Shown here piece by piece: positions 17,564 to 31,022 of a stretch of 64,000 nt of DNA. Origin of the DNA: Arthrobacter sp. MYb214 (GTDB lineage Bacteria > Actinomycetota > Actinomycetes > Actinomycetales > Micrococcaceae); NCBI RefSeq assembly GCF_002979865.1, contig NZ_PCPZ01000001.1, positions 1,116,001 to 1,180,000 of the forward strand, written 5' to 3'. The translations under genes were made by a program, and so were the position numbers. The notes under the pieces are model-generated. The model was not told the origin of the DNA, searched no databases, and saw only the letters and a program-made list of their open reading frames with translations. How positions within the stretch are numbered: position 1 is the first letter of the stretch; each line of letters opens with the position of its first letter.

Positions 17564-19156
17564 CTATGCGAAGCCCAGCTCGCGCGCCGTGAGATTCTTG
17601 TATGACGCTTTCCCGCCGGAGACAAAGAGCTTGATCCCGGCATCAGTGGACAGCGGGAACACGCGATGAGAGTGGACGAGCCGCCCGTCGCCGAAGAACA
17701 CCTCGACGCTAGAGCGATCCACCAGGATGCGCACGTCGAGTTTCCCGCTCGGTACCTCCAATGGGCTCTTGGATTCGCCCTTATCCCCCGGATGGAAGCC
17801 CGGCTTGCGATTCACATAGGCGAACCCGCCGGCCAAATAGAGCCCGGTTGCCACATGGCGCGTTCCGGATACGGCCCGGCACAGCTCGAAACCGATGTTT
17901 TCCGGCGGGTTGGCCGGGTCCCACTGCAATTCGCACTGCAGCACATAAGCACTGCTGGAGAACGGGAGAATCTTCTCCCCCGAAACCACAGGGCTGCCGA
18001 ACTTGGTGGTTGCACGGGCTAGCCTGTCCAGCTGCGCCACCGGAACAGAAGCGAGGTAATTGCCATTCGGTCCGGCAACCATCCGCACCTCGCGCACAAT
18101 CATGTCGTCTCCGTTGTAGCCATCGGTGGCCATGCTCGGAGCATTATGCGGATAATCCCAGAAGTTGTTCCAGCCAATGGCGCGGCGCATTCCGGGATTT
18201 TCGCTGCCATCGGCGTGGTGGTCCGGATAGGTCACCGCGCCGTAGAAGTCGAAGCCCCAATCCAGCCATTGCGGCTCGGCTTGCGAAGCAGTGAAGGCCT
18301 TTCCGTCGAAGTCGCCAATCCAGTAGGCGTAGGTAGCGGGCAAATCGCGGGGCTTGCCGTTAGCGCTGGTTCCCAGCACCCAATGCCTGGAGCCATCCGA
18401 AGCCTGGATCTGGAAGAGATCCGGGCATTCAAGAATGCCCAGAGTGGTGCGCACGAATTCGCTGGTTCTCGTCCACTGCTTCAGATCCGCCGAAGCATAG
18501 ATTCCGATGCGGTCTCCCTCGGCATTGAGCAGGACCCACTGAGAGCTCTGCTCATGCCAGATCACCTTCGGGTCGCGGAAGGCATCGGTGCCCGGGTTGG
18601 CCAGAACCGGTTCGGTCCCTCCGGGTATGAAGCTGCGTCCCTTGTCGGTGGAGTACCAGAGGTACTGGGCCTGCACGCCATTGGGGGCTTGGGTGACCAA
18701 AGCAATCAACGTGCCCTTCCCGTATCCTGCGGTGTTTTGCTGGTCGATGACAATTGATCCGGACCAGCAGTCCCCGTTGGGGCTCTCATGCTTGCTGATA
18801 GCTACGCCGCGGTCAGTGAAATTGACGTGGTCAGTGGTACTCGCCATGCGCCAGCTGGTCCCAATGCCGCCGAGAATGTAGTCCTCGTTGTAGAGGTAGT
18901 AGTACAGGTATTCGCCATCAAGATACACCGGACGCTGCGGGTCGTTCTTCCAATTGTCGGGGACGCTGAAGTGGTAGCTGGGACGGTAGCTCATGGCCGG
19001 GGAAACGCCCTTCTTGGTCTTGGAGCTGCCTGCGGGAGCGGCATGGGCTGCATCTGGGCCAACCCCGGCCAGCCCCAAAGCGGTGGCTGCAGCCAGGGTT
19101 TTGACAACATTTCTCCGGGAGGCGCTGCCGTAGGCGGCATTCATATCCAGATTCAA
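17564..19156 (-). CDS. Tat-exported GH32 levanase-type enzyme (LevB-like)
   Basis: About 530 residues. The N-terminus has a twin-arginine signal (SRRNVVK, then a hydrophobic stretch and AHA-A cleavage region), so it is exported folded. The GH32 catalytic residues are present: nucleophile in WKNDPQRP (about residue 70), FRDPKV near 195 and acid/base ECPDLF near 245. NDPQ in place of NDPNG, together with WVLGTSANGKP and TYAYWIGDFDGK, resembles endolevanases of the LevB type and the related levan fructotransferases. It probably releases levanbiose, short levans or a difructose anhydride outside the cell. It is the last gene of the ABC operon. The TTG start overlaps the preceding stop; ATG 19144 is an equally possible start. 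Confidence 0.85.
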   Translation of the reverse strand: MNLDMNAAYGSASRRNVVKTLAAATALGLAGVGPDAAHAAPAGSSKTKKGVSPAMSYRPSYHFSVPDNWKNDPQRPVYLDGEYLYYYLYNEDYILGGIGTSWRMASTTDHVNFTDRGVAISKHESPNGDCWSGSIVIDQQNTAGYGKGTLIALVTQAPNGVQAQYLWYSTDKGRSFIPGGTEPVLANPGTDAFRDPKVIWHEQSSQWVLLNAEGDRIGIYASADLKQWTRTSEFVRTTLGILECPDLFQIQASDGSRHWVLGTSANGKPRDLPATYAYWIGDFDGKAFTASQAEPQWLDWGFDFYGAVTYPDHHADGSENPGMRRAIGWNNFWDYPHNAPSMATDGYNGDDMIVREVRMVAGPNGNYLASVPVAQLDRLARATTKFGSPVVSGEKILPFSSSAYVLQCELQWDPANPPENIGFELCRAVSGTRHVATGLYLAGGFAYVNRKPGFHPGDKGESKSPLEVPSGKLDVRILVDRSSVEVFFGDGRLVHSHRVFPLSTDAGIKLFVSGGKASYKNLTARELGFA

Positions 19157-20100
19157 TTCATTTCGCTTTCGCCGGCCAGCACCCAGTGCTGGCGTGATTC
19201 ATCGATCATGTGCTTTTTCAGGGTGGTGCTGGCCGACCAGCGGTGGATCTGTTCACGCAGGGCCGCGCGCTTCGACGCATCCTGGCTGCTGTCGCGGTCC
19301 GGGTCGGGTACCGCGCCCACCAGCAGCCGGGTGTATGGATGCCGGGGATTGTCCAGCAGCTGCACGGACTCGCCCGACTCGACTATTCGCCCCTCGTTAA
19401 GTACCGCGATCCGGTCCGAGAGATAGCGGGCGGATGCCAAGTCGTGGGTGACATAGAGGATGCAGATCCCATGCTCATCGCGCAGCTTGTGCAGCAGATT
19501 CAGCACGCCGATCCGCACCGAGACATCCAGCATGGAGGTCGGCTCATCGGCCAGGATGACTTTCGGCTTGGCTGCCAGCACGCGGGCGATTGCAATGCGC
19601 TGGCGCTGTCCGCCGGAGAGCTCGTGCGGGAATGAGGACAACACATCCGGGCTCAGCCCGACGGTGGACACCAGCTTGGCCATTTCTGCGCGCTTGGACT
19701 TGATGCTTGGTTGGTGCAGCGCCAAGGCGCGTTCCAGGATGTGCTCCACTCGGAAGGCCGGGTTCAACGAACCGAAAGGGTCTTGGAACACCATTTGCAC
19801 TTCGCTGCGGTAGTTCCGGGCCGCTGATCCCTTGAGCCCGGATATGTCCTTTCCATTGACCAGCATTTCCCCGGAATCCGGTGCCTCAAGCAATGCCAAG
19901 CAGCGGGCCAACGTCGATTTACCGGAACCTGATTCGCCCACCAGCGCCACGATTTCACCGCGGTGCAGATCCAGGTCGATACCCCTCAGGGCCGGAACCT
20001 TCGTGCGACGGAACAGTGCGGTGCTGGTGAAAGATTTGCTCAGCGAACGGATACGCACCACTGGCACCATAGAGGCGTGCTTGGCAGCTGTCGAGGTCAT
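19153..20100 (-). CDS. ABC transporter ATPase, Opp/Dpp family (DppF/OppF-like)
   Basis: 315 residues from ATG 20100, which has AAGGAG upstream and a 4-bp ATGA overlap with the previous gene; the frame is open upstream but that is the neighbour's coding region. It has Walker A GESGSGKST, the signature [16 protein letters not shown] and Walker B VILADEPT. It is one of two nucleotide-binding subunits on the cytoplasmic side of an importer. By family it would be called a dipeptide/oligopeptide ATPase, but the operon ends with a levanase, so transport of short fructans is proposed. It has a shorter C-terminal peptide-family extension than its partner. Confidence 0.88.
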   Translation of the reverse strand: MTSTAAKHASMVPVVRIRSLSKSFTSTALFRRTKVPALRGIDLDLHRGEIVALVGESGSGKSTLARCLALLEAPDSGEMLVNGKDISGLKGSAARNYRSEVQMVFQDPFGSLNPAFRVEHILERALALHQPSIKSKRAEMAKLVSTVGLSPDVLSSFPHELSGGQRQRIAIARVLAAKPKVILADEPTSMLDVSVRIGVLNLLHKLRDEHGICILYVTHDLASARYLSDRIAVLNEGRIVESGESVQLLDNPRHPYTRLLVGAVPDPDRDSSQDASKRAALREQIHRWSASTTLKKHMIDESRQHWVLAGESEMN

Positions 20101-21014
20101 GGCAGTTCTCCTTGAGTGAGGACCGGGGCTTGGGTCGGGGCGACCCAATGGCCTTCGCCTACCTGCCTAAGGTCCTTGATGTTGGTGAATCTGGTGCCTT
20201 CGGCCAAGCCGGTGAGCTTGACTTTCGGTCCGTGCAGGGGCGGGAACGCCCCGAGCAGCGCCTGCGTATAGGGGTGCTTCGAACCATGGCGCAACGACGG
20301 CGCCGGTGCCAGCTCCACGATGCGCCCTCCGTACATGATGCCAATGCGATCGGAGAGCTCAAGCATCAGCGACATGTCATGGGTGATGAACAGGATGGCG
20401 AATCCGAGTTCGCTTTGCAGTTCCCTGATCTGCTCCAGGATTTCTTGCTGAACCACTACGTCCAGCGCCGTGGTGGGCTCATCCAGGATCAGCAACCGCG
20501 GGTTCAGCGCACAGGCCATGGCAATGACAATGCGCTGGCGCTGTCCGCCTGAAAGCTGGTGCGGATAGGCCCGCAATCGCGCCGGATCGATGCGCACCAT
20601 GGTGAGCAGCTCTTCGGCGCGCTGCACCGCGGCAGCACGGGTGCCGCCACGGTGCGTGCGGATCACGTCGACAAACTGCTCGCCAATTCGGGTGACCGGG
20701 TTCAATGAGTTCATCGCCGACTGGAATACCATGGCGACGTTGTTCCAGCGCCAGGCGCGCAGTTCCGCTTCGTCCATGCCCAGCACATCTTGGCCTTCAA
20801 AGAGGATCTTGCCGTGGGTGATCCGCGCAGGATCTTTCAGCAAGCGCATGATCGAGTTGGCAATGGTGGACTTGCCGCAGCCGGACTCCCCCGCCAAACC
20901 GAAGATTTCACCGGAGTGGATGGCGAAGCTGACCCGGTCAGCGCCGCGCACAGCTCTCTCGTCGCTGACGTACTCGACGGTCAGGTCCTGGACTTCCAAT
21001 ACCGGGACGCTCAT
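20097..21014 (-). CDS. ABC transporter ATPase, Opp/Dpp family (DppD/OppD-like)
   Basis: 305 residues. Walker [11 protein letters not shown]-loop [12 protein letters not shown] (the SAMNSLNP form is typical of the family), signature [14 protein letters not shown] and Walker [13 protein letters not shown] are intact. The C-terminus carries the oligopeptide/dipeptide extension ([12 protein letters not shown]), the region that can hold an iron-sulfur motif in some members, but no Cys cluster is visible here. It overlaps both neighbours by 4 bp (ATGA), indicating translational coupling in the operon. Confidence 0.88.
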
Positions 21015-21985
21015 TTTTCTTCCTTTCGCACCACGGTAGTCGCCGCGGTGCTTTTCGTTGCATGCTTCGGGCGGCGCAGGCGCGGATTGGTGATTTCATC
21101 CACCGCGTAGTTGCACAGGGCCAAGGCGAAGGCGACCAAGGCGATGGCCAGGCCCGATGGCACGAAAATCCACCATTGGCCCAGCATCAGCGATCCGTCG
21201 CTGGTCGCCCAGAACAGGTTGGTACCCCAGGAGATGGTGTTCACGTCGCCCAAGCCCAGGAATTCAAGCCCAGCCTGTGCGCCGATGGAGCCGATGATGC
21301 AGCCAAGCAGCGTGGTCATGACGACCGAGGCCATATTGGGGAGCATTTCGCGGACCATGATGCGCAGCGGGCGCTCGCCCGATACCAAAGCCGCGGCAAC
21401 ATAGTCTTTTCCGCGGATGGACATGGCCTGGGAACGCATGACGCGTGCGCTGCCTGCCCATCCGGTAATCATCAGCACCACGATCACCGTGCCAAGACCA
21501 GGCGGCATGAATGCCGCCAGGATCACCAGCAACGGCAGGCCGGGCACCAGCAGGAAGACGTTGGTAACCAGGGAGAGCACCTCGTCCAGGCCGCGGCCGA
21601 AGTAGGCCCCGCTCAACCCGACCAGCACGCCGACAATGGTGGAGAGGATGCCGGCGGCGAAGCCGACGAAGAGCGACGAGCGGGCACCCCACAGGGTCAG
21701 CCCCAAAACGTCTTGGCCCTTGCTGGTGGTACCCAGCCAATGCTCCATGCTTGGTGCGCTGGCACCGGCCGAGGTAATCCGCGACGGATCCCCGGGGAAG
21801 AGCGCCGGGGCAAGCAAGGCCAGGATGATAAAGGCAAGCAGGATGCTGAGCCCAGCCACGGCCTTGCCGTTGCGGAGCAAAGTCCGCAGCAACCGGGTAG
21901 CACTGACTCTGGCACGCGCGGAGCCGCTTTCCTCCGCTGGTTGCGAGGCAGCCAGAGTCTGTGGATCTGTAGCATTCTGGGTCAT
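21011..21985 (-). CDS. ABC transporter permease, Opp/Dpp family (DppC/OppC-like)
   Basis: 324 residues with about six membrane helices and a cytoplasmic N-terminus of about 35 residues. The early LFPGDPSRIT and HWLGTTSKGQDVLGLTLWGARSSLFVG segments are hallmarks of the DppC/OppC subunit, and the EAA-type loop is near residue 210. It lies 5 bp downstream of the DppB-type permease and overlaps the next ATPase by 4 bp. It forms the membrane channel with its partner. Confidence 0.88.
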   Translation of the reverse strand: MTQNATDPQTLAASQPAEESGSARARVSATRLLRTLLRNGKAVAGLSILLAFIILALLAPALFPGDPSRITSAGASAPSMEHWLGTTSKGQDVLGLTLWGARSSLFVGFAAGILSTIVGVLVGLSGAYFGRGLDEVLSLVTNVFLLVPGLPLLVILAAFMPPGLGTVIVVLMITGWAGSARVMRSQAMSIRGKDYVAAALVSGERPLRIMVREMLPNMASVVMTTLLGCIIGSIGAQAGLEFLGLGDVNTISWGTNLFWATSDGSLMLGQWWIFVPSGLAIALVAFALALCNYAVDEITNPRLRRPKHATKSTAATTVVRKEEK

Positions 21986-21990
21986 GGCGA

Positions 21991-22968
21991 TCAGCCTTTC
22001 CGCACGCGAGGGTCGAGTCGGACGTAGACAAGGTCTACGAGGAAGTTGGCTATCAGCACCGCGGCAGTAATGGTCAGGAACATGCCCTGCATCAGCGGGT
22101 AGTCAAGGCCTTGGACAGCGCCGAGCAGCTGGTAGCCGACGCCTGGGTAGGCGAATACCACTTCGGTCAGCAGTGCGCCGCCGACGATGAAGCCGATGCT
22201 CATGCCCATGCTGGTGACCGATGGCAGCATCGCGTTGCGTGCCGCGTAGTTCAGCATGATGCGGTGCGGTCGCAGCCCCTTGGCCTCGGCCATCAAAATA
22301 TAGTCTTCGGAGTTGGTGGCAATCATGGTGTTGCGCATGCCCAGCATCCAGCCGCCCAGGGAAACCAGCACGATGGTCAGCGCGGGCAGGACCAGGTGCG
22401 CTGCAACGTCCAGGATGAATTCGAGATTGAATCCGGGAACCAGGCCTACGGAGAAGGCATGGCGCATCGGGGCGACGCCCATGTTGATGCCGAAGATGTA
22501 CAAGGCCCCCATGGCTAGCCAGAAATACGGGAAAGAACCGATGAACACCAGCAGCGGTGGAGCAACCGAGTCCAAGAAGCCGCCACGGCGCCAGGCGGCA
22601 AGGATGCCCAGGAGGTTTCCGAGGATCACGGCGAAAATCAATGAAGTCAGTCCCAGCAGCAAGGTCCACGGCAGCTGCGAGGCGATGACCTCGGAGACTG
22701 GAGTGGGGAAACGGGAAATCGACATCCCAAAGTCGCCGGTCAAGACACGGCTAAGATAGCCAAAGTATTCGGGGATGATGGGGCCGCCGTCCACTCCCAT
22801 CAGGGTTCGAAGTGCTTCGACTTGTTGTGGCTCAAGCCGTTGCTGCGAGCGGGACAGCATGCGGGTGACGGGATCGCCTGGCATCAGCCGCGGTAGAAGG
22901 AAATTCAGGGTGATTGACGCCCAGAAGGCTAGGAGATAAAAGCCCAAGCGCCGTAGGAGGAAACTCAT
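21991..22968 (-). CDS. ABC transporter permease, Opp/Dpp family (DppB/OppB-like)
   Basis: 325 residues, six predicted helices. The N-terminal arrangement (FLLRRLGFYLLAFWASITLNFLLPRLMPGDPV) is the DppB/OppB signature, and an EAA-like loop lies around residue 220-240. AAGGA precedes the ATG by 8 bp. It is the first membrane subunit after the binding-protein gene (73 bp gap). As with the other subunits, the family name suggests peptides, but the operon suggests fructo-oligosaccharides. Confidence 0.88.
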   Translation of the reverse strand: MSFLLRRLGFYLLAFWASITLNFLLPRLMPGDPVTRMLSRSQQRLEPQQVEALRTLMGVDGGPIIPEYFGYLSRVLTGDFGMSISRFPTPVSEVIASQLPWTLLLGLTSLIFAVILGNLLGILAAWRRGGFLDSVAPPLLVFIGSFPYFWLAMGALYIFGINMGVAPMRHAFSVGLVPGFNLEFILDVAAHLVLPALTIVLVSLGGWMLGMRNTMIATNSEDYILMAEAKGLRPHRIMLNYAARNAMLPSVTSMGMSIGFIVGGALLTEVVFAYPGVGYQLLGAVQGLDYPLMQGMFLTITAAVLIANFLVDLVYVRLDPRVRKG

Positions 22969-23041
22969 GTTGTGTGTCCTTGGCTAAGGATCGCAACGCA
23001 GCGGGCGGACGGTATCCGCCCGCTGCGAAGGGAAAATGTTG

Positions 23042-24718
23042 CTAGTTCGCTGGTTCCAGGCTGGTGAGCACCAGAACGGTGGTCGGGGCCCGGTTGCTCA
23101 ACGTGGCATACGGGTTATCTTCGGTTGGCCAACCCACGAAGTTCTCAGTGGTGTAGGCACCCCATTCCGGGCCGGCGAATAGCGGTACTACCGGTGCCAG
23201 TTCGCTGTAGCGAGCCTGCAGGTCGTTAACGATCTGCTTCTGTTCTCCCTCATCGCCGGCAGCCACGAACTTGTTCAACAGCTCATCTGCTTTTTTATCG
23301 CTGAACCGGTGGTAGTTGTCAAAGGTCTGCTTGCCCACGGGCTTGACGTTCTGGCTGCCCATGAGGTTGAGGTAGTACTGGTAAGGAGTCGGAGCGTTAG
23401 CGGTCCAAACGATTCCGGTGTCGAATTCACCGGTTTCGTAGCTTGCGGTCACCGCGGCCCAATCCGGCGAATCAACAGTGGCCTTGATGCCCACGTCCTG
23501 GAGGTTTTGGGCGATGATATTCGCTACCGAAAGCCAATCCGAGGAGGTTGAACCCACGGAGATATCGAAGGTGAATGGCTTGCCAGCGGCGGTGGTGCGC
23601 TGCCCCTGTGCATTCTCCTTGAAGCCTGCTTCATCAAGAAGCTTCTTTGCGCCTTCCACATCCCGCGTGGTCCAGTCGCACTGTTCGACGACCGCAGTGT
23701 CGCGCCACTTGTCATAGTTGCCGGACAGTCCGGTGCAGTCCGCTGGTTTGGCGTAGTCGGACATGCCGACCTTGACAACCTGTTCGCGGTCTACGGCCAT
23801 GCTCAACGCCTTGCGTACGCGAACATCCGAGAATTCTTTCTTGGTAGTGTTCAGCTGCCAGTTGATTTCGGCGCCAGTGGTCGGGAACCAGAAATGACGG
23901 TGCTCCGGATCCTTGTCCACGTAGGTCGATTGGATATCCGGCATGTAGGTTTGCGTCCAGTCAACATCGCCGGAGATGGCGGCGAGGTTGGCTCCGTCGT
24001 TGCCGGCGAAAGCGAGCATGCGGATGCCGCCGATATTCTGCTTCTCGGGTTGCCAATAGTATGGGTTCTTGCCCAATTCGAAGGACTGCGCCTGGAAATT
24101 GGCTACTTCGGTGTATGGTCCGGTGCCTACCGGTTTCGGGTTCTCTTCATTTCCGGGCTTGTCGAACTTGGACCAGATGTGGGCCGGGACAATCACCTGC
24201 TGGCCCAGTTCGTAGAGGGCCGGGGTGAATGCCTGCTTGAAGTGGAACTCGATGGTCGAGTCATCGAGAGTCTTGATGGACTTCAGGTAGTCATAGCCGC
24301 CGAGCAGTTCCTTTTGCAGTTCAACTGAGAGCTTGACGTCCTTGGACGTCAGCGGGGTGCCATCGGAGAATCTAACGCCCGGACGCAGATTGAAGGCCAG
24401 CGACTTTCCGTCTTTGCCTGCACTCCACTCCGTGGCCAGCCAAGGCACGGTGTCGCCGCCTGCCGGGTTGTAGACCAGCATGGATTCGTAAATGGACTGC
24501 CCGGTCATTGGCGCAGCATTGGGCGAGAAGGGGTTGAAGTTTTTTGAGAAGGTTCCCATGTCCTCGCGCGGAATGGTCAGGAACGCGGCGTTGGCTGATC
24601 CGTCGCCCCCTTCAGTTCCGCCTGGATTCGATGCGACGCATCCGCTCAAGGCGAGGGTGCCGGCCACAGCGGTCGCGGCCACGGCAAGGTGCGCGCGACG
24701 TAAGTATTTGATTATCAT
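23042..24718 (-). CDS. Extracellular solute-binding lipoprotein, family 5
   Basis: 558 residues. A lipoprotein signal peptide with lipobox LSGC (Cys near residue 27) is followed by a linker rich in Gly/Ser and a family-5 (Opp/Dpp) binding domain. MTGQSIYESMLVYNPAGGD, LAFNLRPGVRFSDGTPLT and the C-terminal ELAPVVPLF fit this family. It is anchored outside the membrane and delivers ligand to the DppB/C-like permeases. Family-5 proteins bind peptides, opines or oligosaccharides such as cello-oligomers; here a levanase in the same operon suggests a levan-derived ligand. GAGGAA lies 6 bp before the ATG. Confidence 0.88.
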   Translation of the reverse strand: MIIKYLRRAHLAVAATAVAGTLALSGCVASNPGGTEGGDGSANAAFLTIPREDMGTFSKNFNPFSPNAAPMTGQSIYESMLVYNPAGGDTVPWLATEWSAGKDGKSLAFNLRPGVRFSDGTPLTSKDVKLSVELQKELLGGYDYLKSIKTLDDSTIEFHFKQAFTPALYELGQQVIVPAHIWSKFDKPGNEENPKPVGTGPYTEVANFQAQSFELGKNPYYWQPEKQNIGGIRMLAFAGNDGANLAAISGDVDWTQTYMPDIQSTYVDKDPEHRHFWFPTTGAEINWQLNTTKKEFSDVRVRKALSMAVDREQVVKVGMSDYAKPADCTGLSGNYDKWRDTAVVEQCDWTTRDVEGAKKLLDEAGFKENAQGQRTTAAGKPFTFDISVGSTSSDWLSVANIIAQNLQDVGIKATVDSPDWAAVTASYETGEFDTGIVWTANAPTPYQYYLNLMGSQNVKPVGKQTFDNYHRFSDKKADELLNKFVAAGDEGEQKQIVNDLQARYSELAPVVPLFAGPEWGAYTTENFVGWPTEDNPYATLSNRAPTTVLVLTSLEPAN

Positions 24719-24762
24719 TGAAGTTCCTCATCCATTCATGTGATGTGTAGCGGAGGGGAAGT

Positions 24763-25788
24763 TCATCTGCGGCCGTGCATGGCCACAGACGAACGAATGC
24801 GTGGGGGGCAGCCGATGGTAATTTGGCGATTCTCGATCGGCGAGCCCTCTACCATTTGATTCAATAGGGACACCCCCGCCATGCCCAGTTCTTCGAAGGG
24901 CAAGGCAATGGTTGTCAGCTTTGGCCGCATATGCGGTGCCAGAATTTCCTGATCATCGAATCCGACGATTGAAATGTCTTTTCCCACCTGCAATCCGCGT
25001 TCCTTGATTGCGTCATAGGCGCCCATGGCGATCCGGTCATTTCCGCAAAAAATTGCGGTAGGCGGATCCAGTTGGCTTAGCAGCGTTTGCGTACCGTGGT
25101 ACCCGCTGTCGGCAGTTCCATCACCAGGCACGATCCGGGAATCATCGAATTCAATTCCGTGATCGCGCAGGGCCTGCTTCATACCGGCTTGGCGTCCGAT
25201 TTGCGCAGGAATTCCTGTTTTGAGAGTGATGTGCCCGATGCTGGTGTGCCCGGCCTTGGCCAGGATTTCAGCGGCAGCGTATCCGCCGCCGAATTCATCC
25301 GGAACAATTGATGGCAATTGGCCTCCGGCGTCGAAGCAGTTGACCAGTACGCAGGGAACTGATTTTGCATTTTCCGGCACCGTGATTTGGCGGTGCCAGG
25401 AAGTCGCGATGATCAATCCGCCAACCTGCTGTTCAAGCAGCTTCTCAACGGCGAGGTTGTCCATGCCTGGATCATCGTCGCTGGGTGCGATAAGGAGGAA
25501 GTTGCCGTCTTTCCATGCTGCCTGCTGCGCTCCCTTGATCACGTCAGTGGCAAAGGGCGAGGTGGCAATTTCGGTCACCAGCCCGAACCAGGAGCTGCGT
25601 TTGCTGGCCAAGGTTCGTGCGGCTGCGTTGGGGCGGTAGCCCAGTTCGCGCGCCGTTTGGTTGATTCGTTCTCTTGTGGTTTCGGGGATGCTTGATTCCA
25701 TCCGGCCGTTGAGTACGAATGAGACGGTTGTTCGGCTCACCCCGGCTGCTTTGGCAACGTCGGCCATGGTCACTGACTGCTGAGACAT
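24763..25788 (-). CDS. LacI-family regulator of the levanase/ABC operon
   Basis: 341 residues. The DNA-binding headpiece is MADVAKAAGVSRTTVSFVLNGR with the hinge ELGYRPNAAARTL, followed by a periplasmic-binding-type effector domain (for example IFCGNDRIAMGAYDAIKERG and GFDDQ). It has a strong ribosome-binding site (GGAGG). It is the first gene of the operon, 44 bp upstream of the binding protein, and lies directly behind a promoter with a perfect 16-bp palindrome. Autoregulation and control of the whole operon by a fructan-derived sugar are inferred. Confidence 0.9.
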   Translation of the reverse strand: MSQQSVTMADVAKAAGVSRTTVSFVLNGRMESSIPETTRERINQTARELGYRPNAAARTLASKRSSWFGLVTEIATSPFATDVIKGAQQAAWKDGNFLLIAPSDDDPGMDNLAVEKLLEQQVGGLIIATSWHRQITVPENAKSVPCVLVNCFDAGGQLPSIVPDEFGGGYAAAEILAKAGHTSIGHITLKTGIPAQIGRQAGMKQALRDHGIEFDDSRIVPGDGTADSGYHGTQTLLSQLDPPTAIFCGNDRIAMGAYDAIKERGLQVGKDISIVGFDDQEILAPHMRPKLTTIALPFEELGMAGVSLLNQMVEGSPIENRQITIGCPPRIRSSVAMHGRR

Positions 25789-25851
25789 GCCCCTCCTCCC
25801 CTTCGAGATCAGTGCGTTTCGCGTCGTGCCAACGGTTTGCTAACACGATTC

Positions 25852-25909
25852 AGTAACGCGCGTTACTACGCTGTGAAATAAGGTAACCTACATCACTTAC
25901 GGCTGTCAA
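25852..25909 (-). promoter_or_regulatory. Promoter and LacI operator of the levanase/ABC operon
   Basis: On the minus strand, -35 TTGACA (25904-25909) and -10 TACCTT (25880-25885, 18-bp spacer; TTACCT at 17 bp is the alternative) are followed by the perfect palindrome AGTAACGCGCGTTACT (25852-25867), placed about +6 to +21. A CG-centred even palindrome is typical of LacI operators. The rest of the 370-bp gap to 26158 has no gene; it contains CAGGA-TCGAT-TCCTG (25942-25956) inside TTGAC...GTCAA arms, of unknown role. Confidence 0.75.
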
Positions 25910-26158: not shown

Positions 26159-27187
26159 TCAGCGGGATTTCATGGACTCGCGCTCGATGAGCGGCATGTC
26201 GATCTGATGCTCCCCGGGCTCCAGCTTTCCATCGAGCAGAAGCTCAACGGCCAGAGCACCCATCCCCTCATATGGAAGTCGAATAGAGGTCAATTGCGGG
26301 CGAAGGTAGCTGGCAATGATCTCGTCATCGAAAGACAGCACGGACAGGTCCGTTCCTGGCTTCAGGCCATTTTCGGCGAGCGCTTGGAAGACACCCATGG
26401 CCACGCGGTCATTGGCGCAAATGATGGCGTCAGGGTTGTACCCGTCGGCTAGCATCCGGATTGTTGCTTCATATCCGTCGGTGGGGTTCCAGTCGTCGAG
26501 CACCCAGTGGCCCAGTACTTCGAGGTTTGATTCCGCCAAGGCTCTGCGCAGGGAGCCGAAGCGGCGAGAGATACTTGGATAGGTTCGCGGATCCTTTTCG
26601 GCGTTTTCAAGTTCACCGATGACCGCAACACTCTTCGCCCCGGATTCGATAACCCTCTGCACGGCTTTAGCCCCCGAATCCATCTCATTGGGAAGCACTG
26701 CGACGCAAGGGCTGTCGTCAATGCCGTTGACCAGCACGGTGGGCAATCCAGTTTTCGGGATCTTCAAATCACGTTGGCGAGAATCCATGAACCCAAGAAT
26801 CAGCCCGTCAACGTCCCGGTGGGTCATCTGCGTTATTGCTTCAGCCATTTGTTCTGGCTTGCCGAAGGTCTCAGCAATGAGCACCGTATGGTCTCGCTCT
26901 TCCGCTGCGCGCAGGATGCCGGTGATCATTTCGGAAGCAAAACGAGTCACGGTAACTTGATCAGAGATGAACCCCAGGGTGCGCGTCTTCCCGCTTCGCA
27001 AGGATTGGGCTGCCGCATTTGGCCGGTAACCCAGTTTCTTGGCGGCCGCGCGCACTCGTTCCGTGGCTTCGGCGGACAGTCGCGTGCCCGGCTTATTGTT
27101 CAGGATCATGCTGACGGCAGCCTTGGACATCCCCGAAGCTTCTGAAACGTCAGCAATTGTTATCCGCTTGGCTTTAGGCGATTCCAC
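26159..27187 (-). CDS. LacI-family regulator, CscR-like
   Basis: 342 residues starting at GTG 27187 behind GAGGG. Headpiece ITIADVSEASGMSKAAVSMILNN, hinge KLGYRPNAAAQSLRSG, and a sugar-binding effector domain with ICANDRVAMGVFQALAENG and SFDDE. It is divergent from the cytoplasmic GH32, fructokinase and symporter genes, the same layout as cscR in sucrose operons. It is a different regulator from the LacI at 24763 (the recognition helices differ: SRTTVSFVLNG versus SKAAVSMILNN), so the two halves of the fructan locus are probably controlled separately. Confidence 0.9.
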   Translation of the reverse strand: MESPKAKRITIADVSEASGMSKAAVSMILNNKPGTRLSAEATERVRAAAKKLGYRPNAAAQSLRSGKTRTLGFISDQVTVTRFASEMITGILRAAEERDHTVLIAETFGKPEQMAEAITQMTHRDVDGLILGFMDSRQRDLKIPKTGLPTVLVNGIDDSPCVAVLPNEMDSGAKAVQRVIESGAKSVAVIGELENAEKDPRTYPSISRRFGSLRRALAESNLEVLGHWVLDDWNPTDGYEATIRMLADGYNPDAIICANDRVAMGVFQALAENGLKPGTDLSVLSFDDEIIASYLRPQLTSIRLPYEGMGALAVELLLDGKLEPGEHQIDMPLIERESMKSR

Positions 27188-27300: not shown

Positions 27301-28782
27301 ATGGCAGCGTTGCCCGAAACTCAACAGGTCGCGGTGAAGCGACCACAGCTACATTTCACTGCGAAGAAAAACTGGATCAATGACCCCAATGGATTGTTCT
27401 TTGACGGAAAGCAATACCACCTGTACTTCCAGCACAATCCTCACGGCGTAGGCCACGGATTCATGTCTTGGGGCCACGCGGTCAGCACCGATCTGGTGAA
27501 CTGGGAAGAACTTCCTATCGCGATTCTGCACGGCGACATGGCTGATATCTTCTCCGGCTCCATCGTGGTGGACCACGAAAATACCAGCGGCTTCGGCGAC
27601 GGCACGGTTGCGCCGGTCGTTGCCATCTACACCGCGGCAGCCAAGGATGAGACCAACCAGTCCCAAGCCATCGCCTACTCGCTGGATGGTGGAATCACTT
27701 TCACCAAATACGGGCAGAATCCAGTTCTGGATCGAGGGTCCAAGGACTTCCGCGACCCAAAGGTCATCCGATACGAATCCGAGCAGGGTTCCTTCTGGGT
27801 CATGGTTGCTGTTGAAGCCATTGATCGCCGAGTGATGATCTACCGTTCTGAGAACCTCAAGGACTGGACCGAGCTCTCCAGCTTCGGACCCCAGGCTGCT
27901 GTTGCCGGAATCTGGGAATGCCCAGATCTATTCCAGCTACCAGTTGCCGGCACAGACCAGCTGAAGTGGGTTCTAATTGTTTCGCTGAACCCAGGCGGCG
28001 TGGCCGGCGGCTCAGGTACCCAGTACTTCATTGGTGAATTCAACGGCACCACCTTCACTCCTGATGAGACTCAGGAAACTTGGGATAGCTTCGGATACGA
28101 ATCCTTGAAGCAGGGCGACTGGCTGGACTGGGGACGCGACTTCTATGCAGGTGTCAGCTTCCACGGCTTGCCACTAGACGAGCAAACTCTCATTGCCTGG
28201 ATGAGCAACTGGGACTACGCCCGCGAGCTCCCCCACGACGGATGGCGCGGATCCATGAGCGCCGCACGCCGGCTGGATTTGGTGAAAGACTCCAACGGCA
28301 AGTTGGACATTCGCCAGCGCATTCTCGGATTGCCAAAAGCCGACGTTGCATCAAGCAAGGCCAACGCTGGCGAAAATCGTATTGAGCTGGGCTCCCCCGC
28401 TCTGGTTGAACTGACGTTTGCTACCAGCCCAACCGAACCAGCAGTCCTTTCCTTATTCCGCGCCGATGACACTCTTATCAGCGAACTCACCGTTGAATCC
28501 GCATTGATTCAGCACCGCCGCGAAGCAGGCAAGGTAGACCACGAGCTCTACGCCTCCAACCAGCGCATGCCTCTGCCCGCTGGTTCGGATGAACTAGATG
28601 TGAAAGTTCTCGTGGATCACGGATCTATCGAAATCCTAGCTGCTGGTGGTCGACGTTCCCTTACGGATCAGCTCACCGGTGAGGCAGCGCTGGCCTACGC
28701 GACCTTGCGCGTCGCAACTGGTGCGAATGCGTCTTTCAAAGTTCAAGAACTCTCTGATAACGCACTGGAGCCCAAGGCATGA
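27301..28782 (+). CDS. Cytoplasmic GH32 beta-fructosidase (sucrose/fructo-oligosaccharide hydrolase)
   Basis: 493 residues without a signal peptide. All three GH32 signatures are present: WINDPNG (nucleophile Asp, about residue 26), FRDPKV near 155 and WECPDLF (acid/base Glu) near 205, then a C-terminal beta-sandwich. It releases fructose from sucrose or from imported fructo-oligosaccharides. GAAGG abuts the ATG at 27301; TTG 27310 would give better spacing and may be the true start. It overlaps the fructokinase gene by 4 bp. The equivalent of cscA/sacA. Confidence 0.92.
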   Translation: MAALPETQQVAVKRPQLHFTAKKNWINDPNGLFFDGKQYHLYFQHNPHGVGHGFMSWGHAVSTDLVNWEELPIAILHGDMADIFSGSIVVDHENTSGFGDGTVAPVVAIYTAAAKDETNQSQAIAYSLDGGITFTKYGQNPVLDRGSKDFRDPKVIRYESEQGSFWVMVAVEAIDRRVMIYRSENLKDWTELSSFGPQAAVAGIWECPDLFQLPVAGTDQLKWVLIVSLNPGGVAGGSGTQYFIGEFNGTTFTPDETQETWDSFGYESLKQGDWLDWGRDFYAGVSFHGLPLDEQTLIAWMSNWDYARELPHDGWRGSMSAARRLDLVKDSNGKLDIRQRILGLPKADVASSKANAGENRIELGSPALVELTFATSPTEPAVLSLFRADDTLISELTVESALIQHRREAGKVDHELYASNQRMPLPAGSDELDVKVLVDHGSIEILAAGGRRSLTDQLTGEAALAYATLRVATGANASFKVQELSDNALEPKA

Positions 28783-29684
28783 GCCGCATTAGCGTAATGG
28801 GCGAATCCCTCGTCGACGTTGTTGAAGAAACTGCGCATCCTGGCGGATCACCGCTGAATGTCGCCGTCGGGCTTGCCCGGCTGGGACATGATGTTCAGTT
28901 CTATACGGAATTCGGTCAGGATTCCTACGGCATTCAAATTGCGGAGCACCTGGATCAGGCGGGAGTGCATGTTGCCGCCGGCTCAGTAACTGGGCATCCC
29001 ACGTCCGTAGCCCAGGTAGTGATGGATGAGCACTTCAATGCTCGTTACACCTTCGACATCCACCAGCAGATTCCTGCTGTCCCCGCTGATGATTCCAGCG
29101 AATTGCTGCACACCGGTTCCATCGCTGCTTGGATTGAACCCTCGGGTCAAATCATTGTCGATGCTTTCAAGAATGCATCAGACGATTCACTTCGAAGCTA
29201 TGACCCTAACCTCCGTCCGGATCTTGTCGAGGACAGGGACTCGGCTTTGCAACGCATTGAGCTGCTGATGGGCCTGAGCCACATCGTGAAGCTCAGCGAC
29301 GTTGATGGTCAGTGGCTATACCCAGGCCTAGAGCCATGGGAGGTTCTGAAGCACGTAGCCAGCCTCGGCCCAGCCTTGGCGGTGATGACTCAGGGCGGCG
29401 ATGGTTGCGTGGCGCTTTCCTCGGGACGGCAATTTGATGTCGCTGCCTCTCCCACCAATCTTGTGGACACCATAGGTGCCGGGGACGCCTTCATGTCCGG
29501 GCTGCTCTTTGGAGTGCTGGCTAATCCAGAATTCGCTCAAGCTCTTCGTCACGGCGCAACGGCTAAGTCTCAAGATGTTGAAGAGGCACTTCGTCAGGCC
29601 TTAACCTCAGCTGCACTGACAGTGGCACAAGCCGGAGCCAATCCCCCGTGGATTAAAGACTTCTCCCTCGCAATCGCTCAGTAA
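28779..29684 (+). CDS. PfkB-family carbohydrate kinase, probable fructokinase
   Basis: 301 residues, ribokinase fold. It starts ISVMGESLVDVVEE, carries the substrate-site GGSPLNVAVGLARLG (about residue 24-38) and ends with the anion-hole/catalytic motif DTIGAGDAFMSGLLFG near residue 230-245 (catalytic Asp in GAGD). It phosphorylates the fructose released by the upstream GH32 to fructose 6-phosphate. ATGA overlap with the GH32 gene indicates coupled translation. The substrate is taken from context. Confidence 0.9.
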   Translation: MSRISVMGESLVDVVEETAHPGGSPLNVAVGLARLGHDVQFYTEFGQDSYGIQIAEHLDQAGVHVAAGSVTGHPTSVAQVVMDEHFNARYTFDIHQQIPAVPADDSSELLHTGSIAAWIEPSGQIIVDAFKNASDDSLRSYDPNLRPDLVEDRDSALQRIELLMGLSHIVKLSDVDGQWLYPGLEPWEVLKHVASLGPALAVMTQGGDGCVALSSGRQFDVAASPTNLVDTIGAGDAFMSGLLFGVLANPEFAQALRHGATAKSQDVEEALRQALTSAALTVAQAGANPPWIKDFSLAIAQ

Positions 29685-29723: not shown

Positions 29724-31022
29724 ATGGCTGGCATTACGACTACTTACAAGAATCCTATTTACCTCCAGAGTTCCTTCTCGATGCTCCTGTTCTTCGCATC
29801 GTGGGGCATCTGGTGGTCCTTCTTCCAGATCTGGCTCACCAGCGAATCAGCAGGTCTAGGGCTCACCGGGGCACAGGTCGGCACGCTCTACTCGGTAAAC
29901 TCGCTGGCAACGCTGATCCTGATGTTTGCCTACGGGACCATTCAGGATCGGCTTGGCGACAGAAAGCATCTGGCCACCATTCTTGCCTCGGTGACCGCCC
30001 TGATCGGGCCATTCTGCACGTGGGTCTACCAGCCACTATTGCAGTCCCAGTTCATGGCCGGCGTGCTCATTGGCGCCATTGTCTTGTCAACTGGTTTCCT
30101 AGCCGGAGTTGGGCTATTTGAAGCCTTGACCGAACGCTACAGTCGCCGTTTCAACTTTGAATACGGGCAGGCCCGCATGTGGGGGTCCTTTGGCTACGCT
30201 CTGGTCGCATTGGCGGCCGGCTTCCTGTTCACTATCAACCCCATGCTGAACTTCTGGATCGGGTCCGTTCTGGGCCTGGCCCATCTCCTGCTGCTGGTGC
30301 TGGGCCGTACCAATAGACAGCCAGTGATCGCCGCCGGTTCCGGCAGGAAAATTCTTTCCCCCGCAACTACACCGACAATTCGTGAAATGTTCAGGCTATT
30401 CCGGCTGCCGAGTCTCTGGCTGATCATCTTGTTCGTCATGCTATCTTGGACGTTCTACACCGTCTTCGACCAGCAGATGTTCCCCGAGTTCTACACCGGC
30501 CTATTTGAATCACCCGAGACCGGACAGCGGGTATACGGAATCTTGAACTCAGTTCAGGTGTTCGTTGAAGCGGCCATGCTTGGCATCATCCCCCTGGTCA
30601 TGCGCCGGATAGGCATTCGTTCAGCATTGCTACTGGGAGTGGCCATCATGTTTGTCCGCATCATCGGCTGCGCTCTGGTTGACGATCCGGTGCTGGTCTC
30701 GGCAATCAAGATGTTGCATGCCATTGAGACACCGCTATTCATCTTGCCGATCTTCCGTTACTTCACGCTGCACTTCAATCCGGCACTGTCGGCAACCCTA
30801 TACATGGTTGGGTTCCAAGTATCGGCACAGATTGGCAACGTCATTCTGTCCACTCCCCTCGGTGCGCTCCATGACCGTATGGGCTACCAGCAGACCTTCA
30901 TCGTGATTTCTCTAGTTGTGCTATTAGCTGGGATCTACGGATTCTTCGCTCTCAAAAAAGATGATCAGCAGGTAGATGGTGACCCGTTCATGCGTCATTC
31001 AAAAGCTGCCATGAACTCATAG
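29724..31022 (+). CDS. LacY/CscB-type oligosaccharide:H+ symporter (MFS)
   Basis: 432 residues with 12 predicted helices. Helix 1 (FSMLLFFASWGIWWSFFQIWLT) and the loop GTLYSVNSLATLILMFAYGTIQDRLG match the LacY/CscB oligosaccharide:proton symporter family, and the 6-7 loop and FDQQMFPEFY in helix 7 are typical. With the GH32 and fructokinase it makes a cscA-cscK-cscB type cassette, so sucrose (or another short fructoside) is the expected substrate. It lies 39 bp after the kinase and ends at a strong terminator. Confidence 0.88.
   Translation: MAGITTTYKNPIYLQSSFSMLLFFASWGIWWSFFQIWLTSESAGLGLTGAQVGTLYSVNSLATLILMFAYGTIQDRLGDRKHLATILASVTALIGPFCTWVYQPLLQSQFMAGVLIGAIVLSTGFLAGVGLFEALTERYSRRFNFEYGQARMWGSFGYALVALAAGFLFTINPMLNFWIGSVLGLAHLLLLVLGRTNRQPVIAAGSGRKILSPATTPTIREMFRLFRLPSLWLIILFVMLSWTFYTVFDQQMFPEFYTGLFESPETGQRVYGILNSVQVFVEAAMLGIIPLVMRRIGIRSALLLGVAIMFVRIIGCALVDDPVLVSAIKMLHAIETPLFILPIFRYFTLHFNPALSATLYMVGFQVSAQIGNVILSTPLGALHDRMGYQQTFIVISLVVLLAGIYGFFALKKDDQQVDGDPFMRHSKAAMNS

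Follow-up and report, generated by a model that had tools for sequence, protein, structure and literature searches.

A conserved operon joining a family-5 ABC importer to a LevB-type GH32 enzyme in Arthrobacter sp. MYb214, with a probable role in fructan use

Operon organization

The window analyzed here is a stretch of 64,000 nucleotides from Arthrobacter sp. MYb214 (contig NZ_PCPZ01000001.1, positions 1,116,001 to 1,180,000), and it contains a candidate fructan-utilization operon. The operon comprises seven contiguous minus-strand genes, which run from 25788 to 17564 in the order: LacI-family regulator; family-5 (SBP_bac_5) binding lipoprotein; permeases B and C; ATPases D and F; and a GH32 enzyme of the type exported by the twin-arginine translocation (Tat) pathway (Table 1). 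An earlier note on this DNA had described the same contiguous order, and all seven genes were found in place. The main Pfam domain lies above the cut-off in each of them, and the combination, in one unit, of an SBP_bac_5 protein, two BPD_transp_1 permeases and two ABC ATPases places the transporter among the family-5 (Opp/Dpp-type) ATP-binding cassette (ABC) importers. With regard to accessory domains, oligo_HPY passes the cut-off in one of the two ATPases only, falling just short in ATPase D (26.3 versus 27.1 bits), and BPD_transp_1_N falls just short in permease B (19.8 versus 23.8 bits).

Overlaps of 4 bp are present at three junctions (permease C/ATPase D, ATPase D/ATPase F and ATPase F/GH32), a count that corrects the earlier note; permeases B and C are separated by a 5-bp gap. 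The binding-protein gene is set off from its neighbors by gaps of 44 and 73 bp. The ATPase F/GH32 overlap exists only with the TTG start of the GH32 gene, for which ATG 19144 is the alternative. ATPase F most likely begins at ATG 20100 behind AAGGAGAA, where it would overlap ATPase D by 4 bp; the mechanically assigned TTG 20148 is unlikely. The gene set is not a chance arrangement, because only one of the 12 family-5 binding proteins in the genome, that of the operon, lies near a GH32 gene, and it sits between the two GH32 genes that the genome contains.

Table 1. Features of the operon and of the neighboring divergent unit (window positions)
Feature	Position	Strand	Evidence
Tat-type exported GH32, nearest endolevanase LevB1	17564..19156	-	PF00251 217.8 bits, PF08244 68.7 bits; motif residues D72, D195, E243
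ATPase F (ATG start 20100)	19153..20100	-	ABC_tran 121.8 bits, oligo_HPY 34.1 bits
ATPase D	20097..21014	-	ABC_tran 106.8 bits; 4-bp overlap with permease C
Permease C, Opp/Dpp type (OppC_N)	21011..21985	-	BPD_transp_1 82 bits, OppC_N 26.6 bits
Permease B, Opp/Dpp type	21991..22968	-	BPD_transp_1 139.6 bits
Family-5 solute-binding lipoprotein	23042..24718	-	SBP_bac_5 250.5 bits; LALSGC lipobox by eye
LacI-family regulator	24763..25788	-	Pfam LacI 58.8 bits, Peripla_BP_3 110 bits
LacI-type operator, perfect 16-bp palindrome AGTAACGCGCGTTACT	25852..25867		12-bp core conserved in homologous loci
TTGACA, candidate -35 element	25904..25909	-	By eye; weak, since the consensus scan did not list it
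Second LacI regulator, neighboring divergon	26159..27187	-	Pfam search
GH32B, no signal peptide (by eye), likely hydrolyzes imported fructans to fructose	27301..28782	+	Pfam search; present in 13/13 loci without S1
PfkB-family kinase, predicted fructokinase	28779..29684	+	PfkB 129 bits
LacY-type sugar/proton symporter	29724..31022	+	LacY_symp 401 bits

Conservation across related loci

We compared 84 homologous loci, 80 of which come from genome contigs (the best 80 of 367 confirmed relatives, leaning to close kin) and four from plasmids. Gene order and downstream GH32 sets were counted in the 78 loci that extend 7.5 kb or more past the binding-protein gene, and the co-occurrence of GH32 types in the 77 loci with both flanks. 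The order LacI, binding protein, permease B, permease C, ATPase, ATPase is kept in all 78, and 77 of them contain a GH32 gene within 7.5 kb downstream. Four of the six shorter loci show a GH32 gene as well, and the other two end at most 1.2 kb from the binding-protein gene. A search for this order in other Micrococcaceae, which had been suggested earlier, thus extends to other families and orders; the hosts include Arthrobacter, Pseudarthrobacter, Microbacterium, Cryobacterium, Isoptericola, Promicromonospora, Cellulomonas, Propioniciclava and Streptomyces. The operon also occurs on large plasmids, three of them linear (Streptomyces) and one a circular plasmid of 1.35 Mb (Arthrobacter) (L001, L002, L003, L004).

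The GH32 linkage fails in one case, Glutamicibacter ardleyensis (L007, identical in place to G010), whose sole GH32 gene is of the GH32B type (Table 1) and lies on another contig. This species (L007 / L098) keeps the whole importer in a genome that lacks a LevB-type gene, in the manner of a scavenger, and it belongs to the closest loci, which are 88-92% identical in the binding protein and place the window genome in Glutamicibacter. Within the genus Glutamicibacter, a LevB-type enzyme (at least 61% identity) is found in 7 of 18 genomes, all of which are among the eight with a binding protein of at least 71% identity. In comparison with the closest relative of the window locus (L104, G013), protein identity is 99% from LacI to permease C and then drops to 95, 87 and 81% in ATPase D, ATPase F and the GH32 enzyme, as if the levanase end (17564-21014) had been exchanged by recombination.

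A conserved operator ahead of the operon

A perfect palindrome, AGTAACGCGCGTTACT, is located 79 to 64 bp ahead of the LacI start. Its 12-bp core, TAACGCGCGTTA, has a single exact copy in the 3.72-Mb genome, inside AGTAACGCGCGTTACT, and one further site with one mismatch, which led us to reject a wide LacI regulon. In the window alone, one site with up to two mismatches compares with 1.23 expected, which is chance level; the weight of the operator therefore lies in its conservation across loci and not in window statistics. The core, with at most one mismatch, occurs within 300 bp ahead of the cognate LacI gene in 81 of 83 evaluable loci, and the other two carry sites with two mismatches. At least two sites are present in 44 loci, and of the 132 matches in the 83 loci, 125 fall inside the LacI upstream stretches. 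Shuffled upstreams yielded a site in 3 of 8,300 cases (mononucleotide shuffles; five of the source upstreams had a misplaced LacI start). In the loci listed, the cognate LacI proteins show 51-93% identity.

A conserved palindromic operator ahead of the operon is what a LacI-regulated sugar operon would have, and its conservation speaks for one co-regulated unit, as far as sequence can indicate. A LevB-type gene that stands apart in locus L060 has its own operator copy upstream, and another GH32 gene, in L063, has a site 25 bp ahead of its match. The earlier note had placed both a promoter and an operator at the front of the operon: the operator is real by this comparison, while the promoter consensus scan gave nothing above shuffles and listed no promoter at 25909-25904.

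The secreted GH32 enzyme

Among solved structures, the window GH32 scores highest against LevB1 (474 bits, 46% identity), and it contains the GH32 domains and the catalytic motifs (KNDPQ, RDPK, ECPD) of endolevanase-type enzymes. A tree made by a quick method from 162 GH32 rows, with long branches flagged, puts the window enzyme in a clade of 38 rows (support 100). This clade joins LevB1 with a support of 90, next to one of the flagged branches, and the levan fructotransferase (LFT) clade (100) stands apart. A more careful tree, for which 32 rows were used, among them every second row of the LevB type and five outgroup rows, likewise separates the window clade (100/99) from the LFT clade (100/98). 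The motif WKNDPQRP(I/V) is present in all 38 window-type rows (WKNDPQRPV in the window) and corresponds to WKNDPQKPV in LevB1, whereas in the LFT clade the motif reads WLCDPQRPV in five of six rows and WVGDPQRPL in the remaining one. The earlier description of this enzyme as LevB-like is thus upheld by similarity and motif, the careful tree adding only its position outside the LFT clade. By clade and motif, we conclude that the window GH32 is not an LFT; the nearest enzyme of known function is LevB1, and an endolevanase is its likely identity.

These data also bear on the idea that the GH32 enzyme is an LFT and that the importer takes up difructose anhydride IV (DFA IV). The window enzyme is 40% identical to LFT (323 bits), and the careful tree gives no well-supported branching order among LevB1, the window clade and the LFT clade; however, the separation of the two clades and the absence of the WLCDPQRPV motif from the window enzyme speak against it, as does the finding that a relative (L097) carries its LFT-clade gene in a separate locus, together with SBP_bac_1-type transport genes. 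We regard this alternative as improbable, and DFA IV, which the earlier note had included among the possible ligands, has become less likely.

A sugar-type site in the binding protein

The binding protein scores highest in profile comparisons against chito-oligosaccharide binders (338-343 bits), followed by Thermotoga sugar binders (198-231), DppA (111) and enterobacterial OppA (97). The nearest solved structures are those of chito-, manno- and cello-oligosaccharide binders, in agreement with the earlier remark that family-5 proteins can carry oligosaccharides. In peptide binders, the amino end of the ligand is anchored by an aspartate that we take to be D436 in DppA and D419 in OppA; a D436R variant of DppA appears among the structure titles. 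This residue is absent from all 46 binding proteins aligned, and asparagine occupies the position in 38 of the 46, in an alignment of about 20% identity. Two sugar contacts of the Vibrio chitooligosaccharide binder VhCBP, a member of the cluster C oligosaccharide binders, N204 and D365, are in contrast kept in 46/46 (as N240 and D394 in the window protein), so that the comparison with sugar and peptide binders, a check that the earlier note had proposed, points to a sugar-type site. In place of the VhCBP Trp363 all 46 proteins have serine (Ser392), with an invariant Trp395 three residues on; no equivalent of Trp513 was found, since no tryptophan follows W530 in any of the 46, the Vibrio row as transcribed ending before residue 513. 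A structural model of the binding protein has a mean pLDDT of 80.1, with a poor stretch at 238-258 that includes the contact residue N240.

An ordinary importer of di- or oligopeptides, opines or nickel, placed ahead of a levanase by chance, would share the fold and subunit types of the operon, which match Opp/Dpp/Nik systems. The GH32 linkage spans families and orders, however, the peptide anchor is missing, and none of the NCBIfam models shown passes its threshold with an ABC subunit (models shown for the two ATPases: the 25 best out of 190 and out of 188). On the linkage and the binding-site residues we reject this explanation, which we consider very improbable.

The next-nearest binding proteins (33% identity, Rhizobium; one record) have an adjoining GH3 gene, with no GH32 listed. 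A more distant relative (28% identity; L095:1411-19519, G033) has its own Opp-type genes and lies near two LFT-clade GH32 genes, in a neighborhood that also holds a LacI gene, a GH32 of divergent sequence and two more permeases. Because this relative adjoins LFT-type GH32 genes, sugar use may reach beyond the present subfamily of binding proteins.

Fixed and variable parts of the GH32 sets

GH32 genes were typed by their best match to four seeds: the window GH32 (LevB-type), the window GH32B, and the two enzymes of locus L002 (S1 and S2). The downstream sets in the 78 loci are S1 with LevB-type (27), S1 with S2 (18), S1 alone (16), LevB-type alone (6), GH32B alone (6), S1 with GH32B (4) and none (1). 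A Tat-like start is found in 2 of 69 S1 and 3 of 36 GH32B proteins, as opposed to 32 of 38 of the LevB type. A GH32B-type gene is present in all 13 loci without S1 and in 14 of the 64 with S1 (Fisher p 1.1e-7, with related loci not being independent); therefore, one or more GH32 genes of these mostly cytosolic types are present in every one of the 77 loci. The window itself lacks S1 and has GH32B instead, in a divergent neighboring unit together with the PfkB-family kinase and the LacY symporter. From these gene contents we conclude that the importer and a cytosolic GH32 form the fixed core of the system, and that the secreted enzyme is its variable part.

The S2 enzymes are proteins of about 1,200 residues. 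In L002, the catalytic part of S2 is nearest to an exo-inulinase and the carboxyl end matches a levanase carbohydrate-binding module. S2-type proteins (L002:19160-22729, L016:17519-21256) have an SDPNG motif without the usual preceding tryptophan, and their extra domains correspond to Pfam 3keto-disac_hyd.

A proposed route for fructan uptake

Our analysis suggests, with a probability of about three in four, that the seven genes are a LacI-controlled fructan-utilization operon in which the LevB-type GH32 cuts levan and the family-5 importer takes up the fragments. The Tat-exported enzyme would cleave extracellular levan to short beta-2,6 fructo-oligosaccharides, presumably levanbiose and levantriose, which would be captured by the family-5 lipoprotein and imported by the Opp-type permease/ATPase complex. 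In the cytosol, GH32B would split the imported fragments to fructose, and the PfkB-family kinase would convert fructose to fructose 6-phosphate. The imported fructan or a product of it would probably lift LacI off the palindromic operator. A fructan importer is favored because of the GH32 linkage, the shared operator and a secreted enzyme nearest to LevB1, and also because of the sugar-type binding site and the adjacent cytosolic GH32 and PfkB kinase. The earlier prediction of a levan-oligosaccharide uptake system is thus supported as a prediction of fructan uptake, levan being the most likely source.

Several observations weigh against this proposal as far as levan is concerned. In the careful tree the window clade joins LevB1 with low support (64/24), and in the 77 loci the secreted partner is LevB-type in 34, S2 in 17 and, within the stretch covered, neither in 26. 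Because the secreted enzyme varies between loci, the uptake of beta-2,6 fragments is something that we infer. The same variation, together with the pairing of binding proteins up to 94.6% identical with either a LevB-type or an S2 enzyme, and the similarity of the S2 catalytic part to an exo-inulinase, is what would be expected of a broad fructo-oligosaccharide importer that accepts both beta-2,1 and beta-2,6 linkages, perhaps also kestoses, and to which the levanase has been added in particular lineages. On the other hand, the sole secreted GH32 of the window is LevB-type, and the levanase-like carboxyl end of S2 points to levan as well. We treat the broad importer as a tentative alternative, rated below even odds; it overlaps with the levan-fragment importer, so the odds of the two are not additive.

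On a wider scale, and with slightly better than even confidence, we propose a widespread actinobacterial mode of fructan uptake in which a family-5 importer would have been adapted to fructofuranosides. The two tryptophans that stack on pyranoses would have been lost, with Trp395 and Trp438 invariant in their stead, and the system would consist of the fixed core of importer and cytosolic GH32, a secreted levanase that can be exchanged, and a LacI operator of its own. Some Glutamicibacter would have a second, separate route based on an LFT and an SBP_bac_1-type transporter.

Other levan-related loci

This second locus (L097:6371-13818 in G012; also L100:8975-16441 in G002, and L005:1917-3518) lies, in L097, between LacY and TsaD and contains an LFT-clade GH32, a LacI (45%), two permeases, an SBP_bac_1 protein and a very divergent GH32 of 491 residues. 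By its gene content it looks like a CUT1-type route for DFA IV, and the divergent GH32 may be the hydrolase of this putative route. Levansucrase GH68 is absent from the window genome, so that levan synthesis by the organism itself was rejected; a search of 19 genomes recovered GH68 in 5. In five members of the genus (G002, G004, G006, G011 and G012) a GH68 gene and a GH32 gene are no more than about 1 kb apart.

Relation to known systems

The closest functional parallel is the inuABCDEF cluster of L. delbrueckii, an ABC importer annotated for oligopeptides (two binding proteins, two permeases and two ATPases) that was shown to take up inulin and not levan (PMC8346543). It differs from the present operon in handling inulin polymers and in having no degradation gene in the cluster; the parallel is drawn from its description. 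The chitooligosaccharide binders VhCBP and VcCBP of Vibrio share the family-5 fold with the window protein; VhCBP binds (GlcNAc)2 and differs from the window protein in the stacking W363 (serine in the window) and in W513 (PMC8449061). Thermotoga maritima TM1223 and TM1226 and a thermophilic cellobiose-binding protein are further peptide-annotated family-5 binders, with manno- or cello-oligosaccharides bound according to their structure titles; they are 24-26% identical to the window protein, the comparison being one of proteins.

Of the enzymes, LevB1 (PDB 9h8i) shares the motif WKNDPQ(R/K)PV with the window GH32. The levB gene of B. subtilis belongs to the sacB operon without an importer, unlike the gene for the window GH32 (as cited in PMC8325422). 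LFT (PDB 4fff) is a levan-acting GH32 of a separate clade, whose kin in L097 goes with SBP_bac_1-type transport genes, unlike the family-5 importer of the window. The levan gene sets of Cellulosimicrobium (PMC8325422) and Priestia (PMC11540611) contain levanases and, in the parts of those reports that were covered, no such importer.

No description of the operon was found among the papers listed by searches of an open-licence library, as judged by titles and the beginnings of abstracts. A survey of LacI regulons mentions fructooligosaccharide in passing and gave no match for levan, fructan, inulin, Micrococc or Arthrobacter (PMC4052901). The view that this is not a standard textbook system is softened by the L. 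delbrueckii inulin importer. A peptide-annotated fructan importer is already known, in the case of inulin, and the levan-linked operon is a widespread new variant.

Family naming places importers of this kind under peptides or nickel, whereas the gene neighborhood, the operator and the binding site all point to fructans for the whole subfamily. Since the subfamily spans Micrococcaceae, Microbacteriaceae, Promicromonosporaceae, Cellulomonas, Streptomyces and others, many transporters would be re-labelled. The operon would also provide a defined system for studying levan use by soil bacteria, and a clean test case of how a pyranose-binding pocket may be changed for furanoses.

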